Origin: Bacteroidales bacterium
GTDB taxonomy: Bacteria > Bacteroidota > Bacteroidia > Bacteroidales > UBA932
DNA: 46,950 bases
Direction: 5' to 3'
Assembly (NCBI GenBank): GCA_017560825.1
Contig: JAFZED010000037.1
Location: forward strand, 1-46,950
Positions 37,083-40,955 of this stretch are shown piece after piece. The notes under the pieces were generated by a model that made no database searches, had not been told where the DNA came from, and saw only the letters and a list, made by a program, of their open reading frames with translations. Each line of letters begins with the position of its first letter. The stretch's first letter is position 1. The translations under genes were made by a program, and so were the position numbers.

Positions 37083-37970
37083 TTATATTCCTACTCCCGA
37101 ATCAGGATCTTCCAGTTCCGGCTCTTCGCCTGGAGCGAGGGTTGTGAAGCCGTCAAGGTAGACTGCCGATGTGCGGCTGCCCAAGGCATTCAGGCCGTAG
37201 AGGTAGACCACGTACTCGGTCGAAGGCTCAAGGCCTTCGATGGTATATTCCTTATTCTTTCCCCTCTGGGGACTCTTCTTGATGTTGTAGATTCCGTCAA
37301 GATACTCTTCTATGGTCTTTCCTTCCGCATCAGCTGCTTCCTGATAGCGTGCGAGGTCGTGCTGGTATATGTCCTCATCGCTCCATCCGTCACCAAATGC
37401 GCTCTTTGGAATCAGACCGCAGGACCAGGTATAGTTCTTGTCGTTTGTCGCTACTGTGAGAACCACCTTGTCATTGTAGACGATCTTGTCTGAGATGTAC
37501 ACCGGCGCAACCCAAAAGGTCTGGGAAACTCTGATGTCAATGGAAGGAAGGGTTGCGTAAGACAGGGTTACGGTTGCCTCGCGTCCCATAGTGTCTGTCT
37601 GGTTCTTTGAAGCAATGAAAGCCACCGCTGCTTCCTCTTCAAGGACCTCTATCTTAAGCCAATCCTTGTTTGTATTTGCAAAGATTGTGTCGATGACCAC
37701 GATTACCGAATCGAACTCATCGCGCATTGTGTCGATCTGGATCTCATAACGCTCCGGATGGTTGATGCGATACTTTACCTCTTCACCGTCATACGGGTTC
37801 ACAAGCCTGTATGAAACCAGGGCGGTGTCTCCTTTCGAGGAGATCTGAACAACTTTCCTGGACACTCTGAAAGAGGTAATCTTAGCAGCATACTCGTCCT
37901 CACAGGAAAGCACTGCAGCTGCAGCCAGAAAGACAACACACAACAGATTCAAATATTTCTTGATGCTCAT
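37083..37970 (-). CDS. Lipoprotein with BACON-like and Ig/FN3-like domains
   Basis: The protein has 295 residues from the ATG at 37970. A lipoprotein signal peptide (MSIKKYLNLLCVVFLAAAAVLSC) has the acylated Cys at 23, followed by EDE; acidic residues after the Cys are typical of surface export in Bacteroidota. The middle (about 40-165) has WLKIEV, ATVTLSYATLPSIDIRVSQTF, the layout of BACON carbohydrate-associated domains. The end (about 225-290) is FN3-like (YTIEGLEPSTEYVVYLYGLNALGSR). No catalytic motif is seen. It is probably a surface-exposed binding or accessory protein. Its promoter (37996-38027) is divergent from the carbonic anhydrase operon. Confidence 0.7.
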   Translation of the reverse strand: MSIKKYLNLLCVVFLAAAAVLSCEDEYAAKITSFRVSRKVVQISSKGDTALVSYRLVNPYDGEEVKYRINHPERYEIQIDTMRDEFDSVIVVIDTIFANTNKDWLKIEVLEEEAAVAFIASKNQTDTMGREATVTLSYATLPSIDIRVSQTFWVAPVYISDKIVYNDKVVLTVATNDKNYTWSCGLIPKSAFGDGWSDEDIYQHDLARYQEAADAEGKTIEEYLDGIYNIKKSPQRGKNKEYTIEGLEPSTEYVVYLYGLNALGSRTSAVYLDGFTTLAPGEEPELEDPDSGVGI

Positions 37971-37995
37971 AAAGCTAGATTTTTCAACTTTGCTG

Positions 37996-38027
37996 CGAAG
38001 ATAATCCATTCCGCCGAGTTTCGCAAA
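37996..38027 (-). promoter_or_regulatory. Promoter of the lipoprotein gene
   Basis: Minus strand: TTTG (38024-38027), 20 bases, TATCTTCG (37996-38003), one mismatch to TAnnTTTG. The start would be near 37990, about 20 bases before the ATG. Confidence 0.55.
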
Positions 38028-38039
38028 TCTGAAAAATGC

Positions 38040-38096
38040 TATCTTTGCATATTATTGATACTTAACTTTCGCAAATGCGAAAGTACCTTATTTTTG
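38040..38096 (+). promoter_or_regulatory. Promoter region of the gamma-carbonic-anhydrase operon with 20-bp palindrome
   Basis: Two -7-like boxes on the plus strand: TATCTTTG (38040-38047) and TATTTTTG (38089-38096). Between them lies a palindrome ACTTTCGCA-AA-TGCGAAAGT (38065-38084), with 9-bp arms, placed where the -33 box and spacer of the second promoter would be. This is a good position for a repressor or activator site. The regulator is unknown. Confidence 0.55.
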
Positions 38097-38118
38097 AGAC
38101 CGTCAGGTCGATTGTAAG

Positions 38119-38139
38119 TCCTCCTCCTGAGGAGGAGGA
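38119..38139. repeat. Palindrome TCCTCCTCC-TGA-GGAGGAGGA
   Basis: Perfect 9-bp arms (38119-38127, 38131-38139), followed by another GGAGGAGG at 38144-38151. Similar CCTCC/GGAGG hairpins occur as scattered intergenic repeats in Bacteroidota genomes (general knowledge, not verified here). It is absent from the otherwise related region before ssb. Confidence 0.6.
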
Positions 38140-38158
38140 TTTAGGAGGAGGGTAACGT

Positions 38159-38245
38159 AAATATAGGAGGTGCGGTGGGTAAAAGTTTCGCAAGTCTCAC
38201 CAAACTTCAATATATCAATAATCTATCACTTGCGAAACTTGAGCG
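38159..38245 (+). promoter_or_regulatory. Conserved 87-base leader, copy A (gamma-carbonic anhydrase)
   Basis: This segment and 40362-40448 align without gaps over 87 bases with about 75 identities, and both end directly at the ATG. AAGTTTCGCAAGT (38183-38195) and ACTTGCGAAACTT (38228-38240) form a perfect 13-bp stem around a 32-base loop. The stem ends 5 bases before the start codon. GGTGG upstream of the stem can pair with TCACC in the loop, so a pseudoknot is possible. All differences lie outside the stem. Confidence 0.75.
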
Positions 38246-38752
38246 ATGGCTATTATCAAGGAATTGAAGGGATGTACTCCCGTTATCGGAGAAGGAACTT
38301 ATCTCGCTGAAACTGCGGTTCTTATCGGAACCGTCCAGACAGGAAGGGACTGCAGCATATGGTATGGAGCGGTGCTCAGAGGCGACGTTGGCGCCATCCG
38401 TATCGGCGACCGCGTGAACATCCAGGACAACGCCGTACTCCACGCCACCAACCACGTATCTGAGTGCATAATCGGCAACGACGTGTCCATAGGTCACGGG
38501 GCAAATGTGCACGGTGCCGTCATAGGCAATGACGTGATCATAGGTATGGGAGCTATAGTGATGGACAACACAGTGGTTCCGGACGGGACAATCATTGCAG
38601 CGGGAGCGGTCGTGACAGCAAACCAGAAGCTGGAAAGCGGAATCTGGGCAGGCATCCCTGCAAAGAAGATAAAGGACGGATCCCCTGAGATTCTTGAAAA
38701 GGCGCACGCCAACGCCGAACACTACCTTGAATACAAGAAATGGTACGAGTAA
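38246..38752 (+). CDS. Gamma-carbonic anhydrase family protein
   Basis: The protein has 168 residues. It is a left-handed beta-helix built of hexapeptide repeats (GTYLAETAVLIGTVQTG, CSIWYGAVLRGDVGAIRIG, IIGNDVSIGHGANVHGAVIG) and a C-terminal helix. The zinc ligands of the family are in place: H66 (VLHATN), H84 and H89 (GHGANVHG). The trimer would bind zinc between subunits. Many such proteins lack proven carbonic anhydrase activity, so the family name is safer than the activity. It heads an operon with a TrmH-like gene and aroE and carries the unusual leader shared with ssb. Confidence 0.9.
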   Translation: MAIIKELKGCTPVIGEGTYLAETAVLIGTVQTGRDCSIWYGAVLRGDVGAIRIGDRVNIQDNAVLHATNHVSECIIGNDVSIGHGANVHGAVIGNDVIIGMGAIVMDNTVVPDGTIIAAGAVVTANQKLESGIWAGIPAKKIKDGSPEILEKAHANAEHYLEYKKWYE

Positions 38753-38753
38753 T

Positions 38754-39572
38754 ATGAGAAAAGAGACCATAACATCCGCACAGAACCCTAAGATCAAAAT
38801 GCTGCTTGCCCTTCAGGAAAAGTCGAAGACAAGACGAAAGGAGGGGCTCTTCATAGTCGAAGGCAGACGCGAACTCGAGCACTGTATCAACGCAGGTTTC
38901 CGCGTCAGAACCTTGTTCGTATGTCCGGAAATAATAAATCCTCAGGATTGGGAATATATATATGAAAAGACCGGCTCACCCGTAGGGTGCGAGCCGTCTG
39001 TGGTGGAGGTCCCTGCAGTTCTGTACGACAAGATCGCCTACAGGGGCGGTACAGAGGGCATCATCGCCGAGATTGAATATATGGAAAGGAACCTCGCCAC
39101 CCTGAAGATGAAGGAGAATCCTCTTGTCGTGGTTCTGGAATCCGTCGAGAAGCCCGGCAACCTCGGAGCGGTACTGCGCAGTGCAGACGCTTCCGGAGCT
39201 GATGCAGTGATCATATGCGACCCGCAGACAGACCTGTACAACCCCAACCTCATCCGCTCGAGCATCGGCGCAATCTTCACCGTACCGGTCGCCGCCGCTT
39301 CATCGGAAGACACAATCAAGTGGCTGAAAGACAACAACATAAAGATATACACTGCTCAGCTTCAGGACTCCGAGTGGTATTATGACACTGATATGACAGG
39401 AGGTACAGCAGTGATTATGGGCACAGAGGCCACAGGCCTGACTGACGTATGGAGGAAGGCAGCCGACGCCCATATAAAGATCCCTATGCTTGGCAGACTG
39501 GACTCGCTCAATGTGTCAGTCTCTGCAGCAATCCTGCTCTACGAAGCCGTCCGCCAGAGAAACAGCAGATAG
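38754..39572 (+). CDS. TrmH/SpoU-family RNA 2'-O-methyltransferase
   Basis: The start is the ATG at 38754, 1 base after the preceding stop. 272 residues. An N-terminal substrate-binding part (QNPKIKMLLALQEKSKTRRK, EGLFIVEGRRELEHCINAG) precedes the SPOUT knot: motif 1 GNLGAVLRSADASGADAVI, motif 2 VIMGTEATGLTD, motif 3 IPMLGRLDSLNVSVSAAILLY. It methylates ribose in tRNA or 23S rRNA; which RNA cannot be told. It ends 4 bases before aroE. Confidence 0.93.
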   Translation: MRKETITSAQNPKIKMLLALQEKSKTRRKEGLFIVEGRRELEHCINAGFRVRTLFVCPEIINPQDWEYIYEKTGSPVGCEPSVVEVPAVLYDKIAYRGGTEGIIAEIEYMERNLATLKMKENPLVVVLESVEKPGNLGAVLRSADASGADAVIICDPQTDLYNPNLIRSSIGAIFTVPVAAASSEDTIKWLKDNNIKIYTAQLQDSEWYYDTDMTGGTAVIMGTEATGLTDVWRKAADAHIKIPMLGRLDSLNVSVSAAILLYEAVRQRNSR

Positions 39573-39576
39573 CCTT

Positions 39577-40317
39577 ATGAAAAAGTTCGGTCTCATAGGG
39601 CATCCTATAGCTCATTCGCTCTCCCCTGCCTTGTTCAAGGCGGGATATGACGGCAGATACACCTATGACCTCATTGAGGAAGAGAGCTTCGAAGCGGCAT
39701 ATTCCCGTTTTATTAATGAATATGACGGCATCAACGTCACTGCCCCGTTCAAGGAGCAGGCCTTCGCCAAGGCAGACATCCTGTCGGAGGAATGCAGGGC
39801 TATCGGGGCAGCAAACATCCTTATCAAGACCCCACAGGGCATCAAGGCCCACAACTCCGACTATCTCGGAGTAAGGATGTGGATCCAGGAAGTCAGCGGG
39901 AACGACGCCTCGCAGAGCGTGCTCGTCGTCGGGGCGGGCGGAGCCGGAAAGGCAGCGGCCGCTGCGGCTGCATCGCTTGGAATGCAGACCACGATCATCA
40001 ACAGGACAATGAGCAAAGCCGCACAATGGGCTGAAAATCAGGGGATATATAAATATATCATCAAACCTGTCAAGGCTTTTGCCGAAGAGTTCAGACGCAG
40101 CGACATCGTCATATATACACTCCCTGTGGCACTTCCGCAGATCTCGGAGCTTGACAGGAGCGAGATCGAAGGAAAGAAGGCCTTGCTGGAGGCCAACTAC
40201 AAGGATCCCGTACTGCGCGGAAACGGAAAGCTGTGGCTTTTGTACCAGGCCGTGACCGGATACGGACTTTTCACTGGAGAAAAACCGAATTTAGAGCGAA
40301 TGTCCGATGTTATATGA
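39577..40317 (+). CDS. aroE: Shikimate dehydrogenase
   Basis: Start at the ATG at 39577; the longer frame lies within the methyltransferase gene. 246 residues. Substrate domain: LIGHPIAHSLSPALFKAGYD, GINVTAPFKEQAF with the catalytic Lys, and HNSDYLG with the catalytic Asp. NADP domain: SVLVVGAGGAGKAAAAAAASLG and NRTMSKA. It reduces 3-dehydroshikimate to shikimate, the step before AroK, whose gene is also in this window. It is the last gene of the operon. Confidence 0.95.
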   Translation: MKKFGLIGHPIAHSLSPALFKAGYDGRYTYDLIEEESFEAAYSRFINEYDGINVTAPFKEQAFAKADILSEECRAIGAANILIKTPQGIKAHNSDYLGVRMWIQEVSGNDASQSVLVVGAGGAGKAAAAAAASLGMQTTIINRTMSKAAQWAENQGIYKYIIKPVKAFAEEFRRSDIVIYTLPVALPQISELDRSEIEGKKALLEANYKDPVLRGNGKLWLLYQAVTGYGLFTGEKPNLERMSDVI

Positions 40318-40361
40318 GAAATATTGATTAACTTGCAAAGTTTTTGGGACGTTCCGAAAAC

Positions 40362-40448
40362 AAATATAGAAGGTGCGGTGGATAAAAGTTTCGCAAGTAT
40401 CACCGACCTTCAGTATATAAACAACTTATCACTTGCGAAACTTGAGTT
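40362..40448 (+). promoter_or_regulatory. Conserved 87-base leader, copy B (ssb)
   Basis: Second copy of the element at 38159-38245. The stem arms are 40386-40398 and 40431-40443, identical in sequence to copy A, with the same 32-base loop length and the same 5-base distance to the ATG. Further upstream, TTAACTTGCAAAGT and TTTTTGGGACGT (40328-40352) match, with gaps, the promoter region of copy A (38062-38103). Both the promoter and leader are therefore related by descent or strong shared selection. Confidence 0.75.
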
Positions 40449-40955
40449 ATGTCATTAAACAAAGCAATGCTGATCGGTAACGTTGGTAGAGACCCTGAAG
40501 TACGTTACCTTGATGGAAATTCGGGAAATGCAAAAGTGGCGACCTTCACATTGGCCACAACCGAGAGGTACAGGGACCGCAACGGTGAAACACGTGAAAA
40601 CACAGAATGGCACAACATCGTGGCGTGGAGAAACACTGCAGATGTCGTGGAAAAATTTGTAAAGAAGGGCACTCAGCTGTACATCGAGGGCCGCATCCGC
40701 ACAAGATCGTGGGATGACCAGACAGGCAACAAGAGGTACACTACTGAGATCATCGCTGACACACTCCAGCTCCTGGGAAAGAAGTCTGACAACCCTGCAG
40801 CTGCACAGCCATCTGGCTATCAGCCTCAGCAGCCTCAGCAGCCAAGCTATCAGGCACAGCCTCAGGCACCTGCATACGCTCCACAGCCTGCAGCAAGACC
40901 TGCAGCCCAGCCTGCACCGGAGGCAGACCTTCCAGATGATGACCTTCCGTTCTAA
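40449..40955 (+). CDS. ssb: Single-stranded DNA-binding protein
   Basis: The protein has 168 residues. The OB fold covers about 1-108 (LNKAMLIGNVGRDPEVRYLD, KVATFTLATTERYRDRNGE, EWHNIVAWRNTADVVEKFVK, KGTQLYIEGRIRTRSWDDQ). A linker rich in Gln, Pro, Ala and Tyr follows, and the acidic tip ends DLPDDDLPF, the docking tail for replication and repair partners. The gene lies 33 bases before purA and carries the special leader, which ends at its ATG. Confidence 0.97.
   Translation: MSLNKAMLIGNVGRDPEVRYLDGNSGNAKVATFTLATTERYRDRNGETRENTEWHNIVAWRNTADVVEKFVKKGTQLYIEGRIRTRSWDDQTGNKRYTTEIIADTLQLLGKKSDNPAAAQPSGYQPQQPQQPSYQAQPQAPAYAPQPAARPAAQPAPEADLPDDDLPF

Follow-up and report, generated by a model that had tools for sequence, protein, structure and literature searches.

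A 46,950-nt stretch of contig JAFZED010000037.1 of a Bacteroidales bacterium (assembly GCA_017560825.1; hereafter the window) carries a gene for a gamma-carbonic anhydrase-like (gamma-CA) hexapeptide protein and, further along the same strand, ssb, each preceded by nearly the same 87 bases (38159-38245 and 40362-40448). A preliminary description made from the sequence had reported that these segments align without gaps with about 75 identical bases and end at an ATG, and our realignment bore this out (75/87), with the 12 mismatches falling, in the numbering of copy 1, at 38167, 38179, 38196, 38202, 38204, 38210, 38216, 38219, 38222, 38223, 38244 and 38245. The coordinates likewise agree with its account of a 13-bp stem (P2) that encloses a 32-nt loop, ends 5 nt before the ATG, and contains none of the mismatches. 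A second helix, P1, pairs the segment before the 5' arm of P2 with the first part of the P2 loop. The downstream genes differ in their Pfam families, so that gene duplication was rejected, as had been said. The same description took the segments for a translational control element or a protein-binding operator shared by two operons, an interpretation that is partly supported: the repeat proves to be not a riboswitch-like leader of two operons but a mobile element. Comparison with its relatives leads us to assign a probability of about 0.6 to the reading that it is a miniature inverted-repeat transposable element (MITE) of an IS4-family insertion sequence (IS) with a sense-strand leader RNA selected for life at start codons.

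With the gamma-CA copy as the query, 10 places in the own genome (G000, an assembly 77% complete) were matched, among them the ssb copy (E = 3e-25); a full-length query gave 13, the three additional ones partial. Most of the aligned copies in this genome have about 183 bp in common rather than 87, and the gamma-CA copy likewise extends beyond the 87-base segment to 183 bp (Table 1). From left to right, the element consists of a hairpin, CTTAACTTTCGC..GCGAAAG, a GACC..GGTC palindrome, a hairpin of C-rich and G-rich arms, and then the 87-base part. Terminal inverted repeats are present (left, CTTAAC/CTCAAGTTTCGC; right, GCGAAACTTGAG), and there is no transposase gene in the interior. The outermost pair of the left hairpin is C-G in 11 and G-C in 6 of 17 aligned sequences (columns 6/24). 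At ssb, the left half of the element is lacking. The bases to the left of this copy are native ssb upstream sequence that also precedes ssb in the relative G183, and we therefore rejected a decayed left half.

Of the 65 copies whose left end was located, 37 lie between direct repeats of 6 bp or more, which reach at least 8 bp in 18 cases; when flanks of different copies were paired as a null, the mean was 2.4% and the maximum 9.2%. The target duplications are about 8 bp and AT-rich. The gamma-CA site is empty in the relatives G183 and G039, where window positions 37708-38055 and 38246-38760 match contiguous DNA with TATCTTTGCATATT joined directly to ATGGC, and no element was found at this locus in G007, G210, G237 or G242 either. 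Within the flank to the left of copy 1, ATTATTGAT is perhaps a mutated duplicate of the former start, ATTATGGC. For ssb, which has a match in 228 of 250 genomes of the genus (own included), the best 30 loci were fetched, and 28 of the 29 relatives' loci had no P2-type hairpin upstream of the gene; in the remaining one, the start could not be placed. Because no element lies at these loci in the relatives, both window insertions postdate the split from them. Judged by its inverted ends, target duplications, empty sites, and ends common with an IS4-family insertion sequence, the repeat is a MITE, and by the same comparisons, the window holds two lineage-specific insertions, at gamma-CA and at ssb.

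The element belongs to gut Bacteroidales and has further copies in relatives. The full-length query matched 15 of 61 genomes of the same genus (own included), mostly through the middle module only, with long matches in G000, G059 and G039. The right end, ACTTGCGAAACTTGAG, occurs with at most one mismatch in 53 of 250 genomes of the genus, up to 39 times in one genome, compared with 0 or 1 occurrences per strand of a reversed control pattern. A scan of a species-level collection, which may leave out the window's own genome, for the P2 hairpin gave 90 stretches whose record titles are all of Bacteroidales or Bacteroidia, or of genera and families taken as belonging there; the hosts include Bacteroides fluxus, Candidatus Alistipes equi, a Prevotella and a Rikenellaceae metagenome-assembled genome (MAG).

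In several genomes, the same right end also follows the stop codon of a transposase gene. The loci L189, L190 and L197 (about 1.6 kb) and L192 (about 1.26 kb) are ISs with the inverted ends TTTAAGTTTCGC..GCGAAACTTAAA. These ends differ from those of the MITE in two outer bases (CTTAAA for CTTGAG), and other IS copies end exactly in CTTGAG. The L189 and L190 transposases score 390 and 374 bits on NCBIfam NF049925 (IS4_4, IS4 family), for which the cut-off is 250 bits.

Placement relative to start codons was scored on pooled loci from which duplicates, defined by their 25 downstream bases, had been removed and in which matches with N or too near a contig end had been skipped. This left 117 elements: 86 with the P1 region (full copies, among them L004 and L256, which the pattern had missed and which were reassigned by hand from the group without P1 once the pooled loci had been inspected), 25 short elements of about 60 bp, which are palindromic and were counted once (17 loci), and 6 ambiguous ones, which were dropped. 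A start was marked wherever an ATG opens at least 80 codons. Left ends were testable in 63 full copies; for the other 23, the left end was not located (21) or the flank was too short (2). Right ends lay no more than 20 nt before a start in 56/86 and no more than 60 nt in 66/86 (51/81 at 60 nt in an earlier, cruder count), the commonest distance to the ATG being 2 nt, whereas the testable left ends did so in 0/63 and 9/63 (right versus left, Fisher p = 3e-19). The 20-nt result was seen in both halves of the data (right, 30/46 and 26/40; left, 0/35 and 0/28). Among the short derivatives, by contrast, 3/17 right ends, 2/17 left ends, and 4/17 elements by either end lay within 20 nt of an ATG (right ends versus full copies, p = 4e-4). 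For IS-type right ends, the count was 2/14 (p = 7e-4), although these 14 include four judged to be non-IS (L258, L274 twice, and L140), without which it was 1/10 (Fisher p = 0.001). Copies that bear P1 are mostly in the sense orientation just before start codons, and relatives without P1 mostly are not. The random position and orientation that the preliminary description had set against its own proposal were thus not found.

An ordinary MITE that has no RNA function could produce part of this picture if it inserts in AT-rich DNA, which in these genomes is richest just before starts, and if its hairpins are by-products of transposition. Its mobility is well supported, the duplicated bases are AT-rich, and an ATG lies within the first 8 flanking (duplicated) bases in 27 of the 56 near-start copies and 6 of the 30 others. 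Insertion at a start codon thereby rebuilds the start. That 4/17 short derivatives also have an end near an ATG fits such an element, as do strongly folded MITE transcripts, which the relevant passages of PMC2229807 present as common. However, the duplicated bases, read by eye as roughly T-W-A-N-T-W-A, look about symmetric and alike in near-start and other copies, and yet right and left ends differ as strongly as stated; target-site asymmetry was rejected as the sole cause of the orientation, to which it may still contribute. The far weaker start bias of IS-type ends and short derivatives also speaks against an ordinary MITE, as does P1, which co-evolves and is stronger on the sense strand (see below). 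We regard this explanation as unlikely, though it deserves weight. An outward promoter at the right end, for which the element is kept because it drives the next gene, would fit the constant orientation at starts, and MITEs can carry promoters, as passages on BrickBuilt of Porphyromonas gingivalis indicate (PMC4596501). Against this, a TATCTTTG box lies upstream of the gamma-CA copy and recurs at the empty sites in G183 and G039, reading the right end of copy 1 by eye revealed no TAnnTTTG box, and the covariation of P1 would be left unexplained. A promoter of this kind is therefore improbable.

P2 consists of the right terminal repeat and an internal copy of the same sequence, which means that its invariance proves little about RNA, and no compensatory change was found in it among 17 aligned sequences. 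We accordingly set the 13-bp stem aside as evidence of RNA function, for which the preliminary description had offered it. Its possible pseudoknot pairing of GGTGG with TCACC fared better, in that this helix belongs to the larger P1. The arms of P1 pair as GAAGGT/ACCTTC here and as GAAAGT/ACTTTC and GTGCGGC/GCCGCAC in two relatives, and in copy 2, its sequence differs from that of copy 1 with the pairing retained. When pairing was scored free of alignment, the 5' segment paired with its own loop at a mean of -15.2 kcal/mol versus -10.8 with other loops, with z of -9.4 for 33 representatives below 90% identity, -5.8 for 11 below 80%, and -3.7 for 6 below 75%. On the fixed alignment of 17 sequences, the evidence was weaker: the P1 positions are paired in 87.6% of cells, and 2 of 500 shuffles reached the covariation score of the helix. 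P1 is stronger in the sense than in the antisense strand in 40/52 sequences (p = 1.5e-5; G-U pairs, 83 versus 64), as expected for a transcribed RNA, and slightly stronger in copies near an ATG (-15.5 versus -13.8, p = 0.007). By these pairing comparisons, P1 co-evolves between species, so that the covariation looked for in P2 is found instead in P1.

Predicted folds are balanced between the two helices. In 102-nt folds, P2 is the minimum-energy structure of both copies (z = -2.35 and -1.65 versus shuffles), and the centroid of the ssb copy is P1; with more coding sequence included (a 125-nt stretch), the minimum-energy structure of both copies is P1. Two interleaved helices beside a start codon, alternative in predicted folds and showing covariation, could also belong to a true riboswitch or a protein-bound operator that senses a signal and has turned mobile, and no Rfam match was found at the gathering threshold in the window. 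However, the genes behind eight copies in the own genome fall into eight Pfam families (hexapeptide protein, SSB, GH43, PmbA/TldD, FGGY kinase, cytidylyltransferase-like, alpha/beta hydrolase and PIF1-like helicase), which speaks against a metabolite riboswitch, and we hold this origin to be very improbable.

Several results weigh against a leader RNA selected at start codons or against its IS4 parentage. The start mark is crude, as random positions pass it in 2632 of 22333 cases (12%) and ATGs within genes are counted too. Moreover, 30 of the 86 full copies lie more than 20 nt from any detected ATG and are exceptions to the fixed position and strand relative to genes that was otherwise found. 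Folds with P2 only are on average 2.7 kcal/mol better than folds with P1 only (standard deviation, 3.7; range, -6.7 to 10.2; 52 sequences), and the own loop is the best partner of the 5' segment in only 9/33 representatives (6/11 and 6/6 at the stricter cut-offs). In the fixed-register alignment, only 2 of 12 P1 pairs have double changes, and of the P1 measures compared with 500 shuffles, three were reached by 1 to 5 of them and two by 311 and 315, the latter not exceeding shuffles. This support is modest because the register shifts between species, and the alignment-free test is the stronger one. The copies and sequences are also related, so that p-values overstate their independence. Neither window copy has a clean target duplication. 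A transposase fragment was found at 1e-10 in only 9 of 250 genomes of the genus, the own genome not among them, and NF049925 was above its cut-off in none of 12 copy-carrying genomes (own and 11 others), with weak partial matches in 3. Absence of the partner is weak evidence in MAGs, because some contigs start or end at IS copies, and in G000, because of its incomplete assembly. An autonomous partner in the same genome is not required of a MITE.

Given these caveats, we still favor a MITE with a selected leader RNA, which could work as follows. An IS4-type transposase would move the element, whose insertion duplicates about 8 AT-rich bases, in many copies including the start codon, so that an intact start remains a few nucleotides past the element. 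The sense strand would be transcribed as a 5' leader; the last 80 nt or so of the element hold P1, interleaved with the terminal-repeat hairpin P2 beside the ATG. On its own, a 13-bp hairpin that ends 5 nt before an ATG should impede ribosomes. P1 would form first in transcription and would either limit P2 or combine with it in a pseudoknot, so that the start codon stays usable or adjustable, and insertions would be tolerated or favored only in sense directly before genes. The sense RNA would thus be selected because it keeps or controls the translation of the gene on which it has landed. In Bacteroidales, initiation of translation is not known to depend on Shine-Dalgarno pairing. The proposed role at translation start is plausible in view of the nonrandom placement and orientation and of the co-evolving P1, as cargo of a MITE, and the element could be a mobile unit of gene-control RNA. 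We put forward only tentatively the fuller proposal of a mobile translation leader, in which a conserved sense-strand pseudoknot or a two-state P1/P2 switch, with the start rebuilt by target duplication, would act as a working and possibly regulated 5' leader of unrelated genes, ssb included, and one RNA control device would have spread across the genome. If leader function is confirmed, transposition would offer a way to copy a single translational control RNA onto many genes at the same time. Bacterial MITEs have mostly been described as intergenic and tolerated there; here, an intact transposon-derived element stands mainly at start codons, in one orientation, and selection would maintain its RNA structure. 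When a genome holds two matching structured leaders, a check for repeats should come before they are called a riboswitch.

Table 1. Features of the two element copies and their downstream genes in the window
Feature	Position	Strand	Evidence or remark
Full-length MITE copy 1, 183 bp	38061..38243	+	Upstream of gamma-CA gene; aligned with other full copies; missing from syntenic G183 and G039 sites
Left end, terminal inverted repeat with own hairpin (CTTAACTTTCGCAAATGCGAAAGT)	38061..38084	+	Imperfect inverted repeat of right end
Middle module CCTCCTCC..GGAGGAGG..GGAGGAGG, covarying hairpin	38115..38155	+	Compensatory changes, columns 64-68 with 74-78; related module also alone elsewhere
P1 helix, copy 1 (38167-38171/38204-38208 and 38174-38179/38196-38201)	38167..38208	+	Interleaved with P2; pairing test, pair counts, predicted minimum-energy fold of 125-nt stretch
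P2 hairpin, copy 1 (38183-38195/38228-38240), 32-nt loop	38183..38240	+	3' arm within right terminal inverted repeat
Right terminal inverted repeat ACTTGCGAAACTTGAG	38228..38243	+	2 nt before ATG; same right end after transposase stop codons in other genomes
Gamma-carbonic anhydrase-like hexapeptide protein gene	38246..38752	+	Pfam Hexapep; start codon backed by G183 and G039 orthologues
MITE copy 2, right half only, upstream of ssb	40362..40446	+	88% identity to copy 1
P1 helix, copy 2 (40369-40374/40406-40411 and 40377-40380/40401-40404)	40369..40411	+	Sequence, predicted centroid and minimum-energy folds
P2 hairpin, copy 2 (40386-40398/40431-40443)	40386..40443	+	Sequence and predicted fold
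ssb	40449..40955	+	Pfam SSB

Like IS4-derived MITEs in general, the element has inverted ends common with an IS4-type element (NF049925), target duplications of about 8 bp, a length of 183 bp, and no internal transposase gene; it differs in its sense-only placement at start codons and in a co-evolving helix interleaved with the terminal-repeat hairpin. BOX elements of Streptococcus pneumoniae are, in the relevant passages of PMC3049150, also modular, structured, mobile, transcribable in 5' regions, and able to affect nearby genes. As in BOX, a further hairpin block is present in part of the copies here (10 of the 65 that were measured, 219 to 247 bp, in several genomes). However, those passages argue that pneumococcal repeats favor regions downstream of coding sequences, whereas the right ends here lie mostly 0 to 20 nt before an ATG in one orientation. 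BrickBuilt, as described in PMC4596501, is likewise a multicopy, folded MITE of the Bacteroidales with ends like those of a resident IS, but it lies 49 to 591 nt from coding sequences and has tandem 23-nt repeats inside. ERIC and Correia/NEMIS elements are transcribed MITEs whose RNA fold alters the fate of the mRNA, in an orientation-dependent way for ERIC; the effects reported in the pertinent parts of PMC2229807 and PMC3049150 are cleavage by RNase E or RNase III, and start-codon placement goes unmentioned there. Sense-only insertion at start codons is not described for BOX, BrickBuilt, ERIC or Correia elements in the corresponding parts of PMC3049150, PMC4596501 and PMC2229807. The term "start codon" is absent from the main text of a MITE review (PMC10969869), and among the titles and abstract openings that searches of an open-access library listed, with subscription papers outside this scope, none describes MITEs placed at start codons or the present element.

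Some minor observations concern the surroundings and the variants of the element. Upstream of gamma-CA, TTTCGCAAAT (38019-38028) resembles the element ends but is native, since G183 and G039 have it at their empty sites too. The only Rfam hit in 37950-40600 is a type I hammerhead at 38809-38864, in an rRNA methylase gene and outside the element, which at 16.9 bits (gathering threshold, 34; E = 2) is most likely due to chance. The extra block (AGTCCAGTGGACTTTTGCAGCGAGCAGC and similar) sits in the loop of the middle hairpin in L002, L048, L091, L098, L099, L102, L111 and L117. The approximately 60-bp derivatives (L028, L101, L103, L239, L258, L262 and L273) are the P2 hairpin alone, with the internal terminal-repeat copy as the new left end. 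At L007, upstream of the cytidylyltransferase-like gene, a short upstream reading frame that runs into the element (ATGAACTTAACTGTCGCA...TGA) begins at an ATG immediately ahead of the left end, and this ATG is perhaps the left duplicate of the start codon. Finally, the middle module GTCCCCTTTCCGAGAAAGGGGATTTAGGGGAAAGGTAACGT also stands alone in several genomes of the genus as a dispersed repeat of its own (L058, 1042-1091; L059, 1068-1124; and others).

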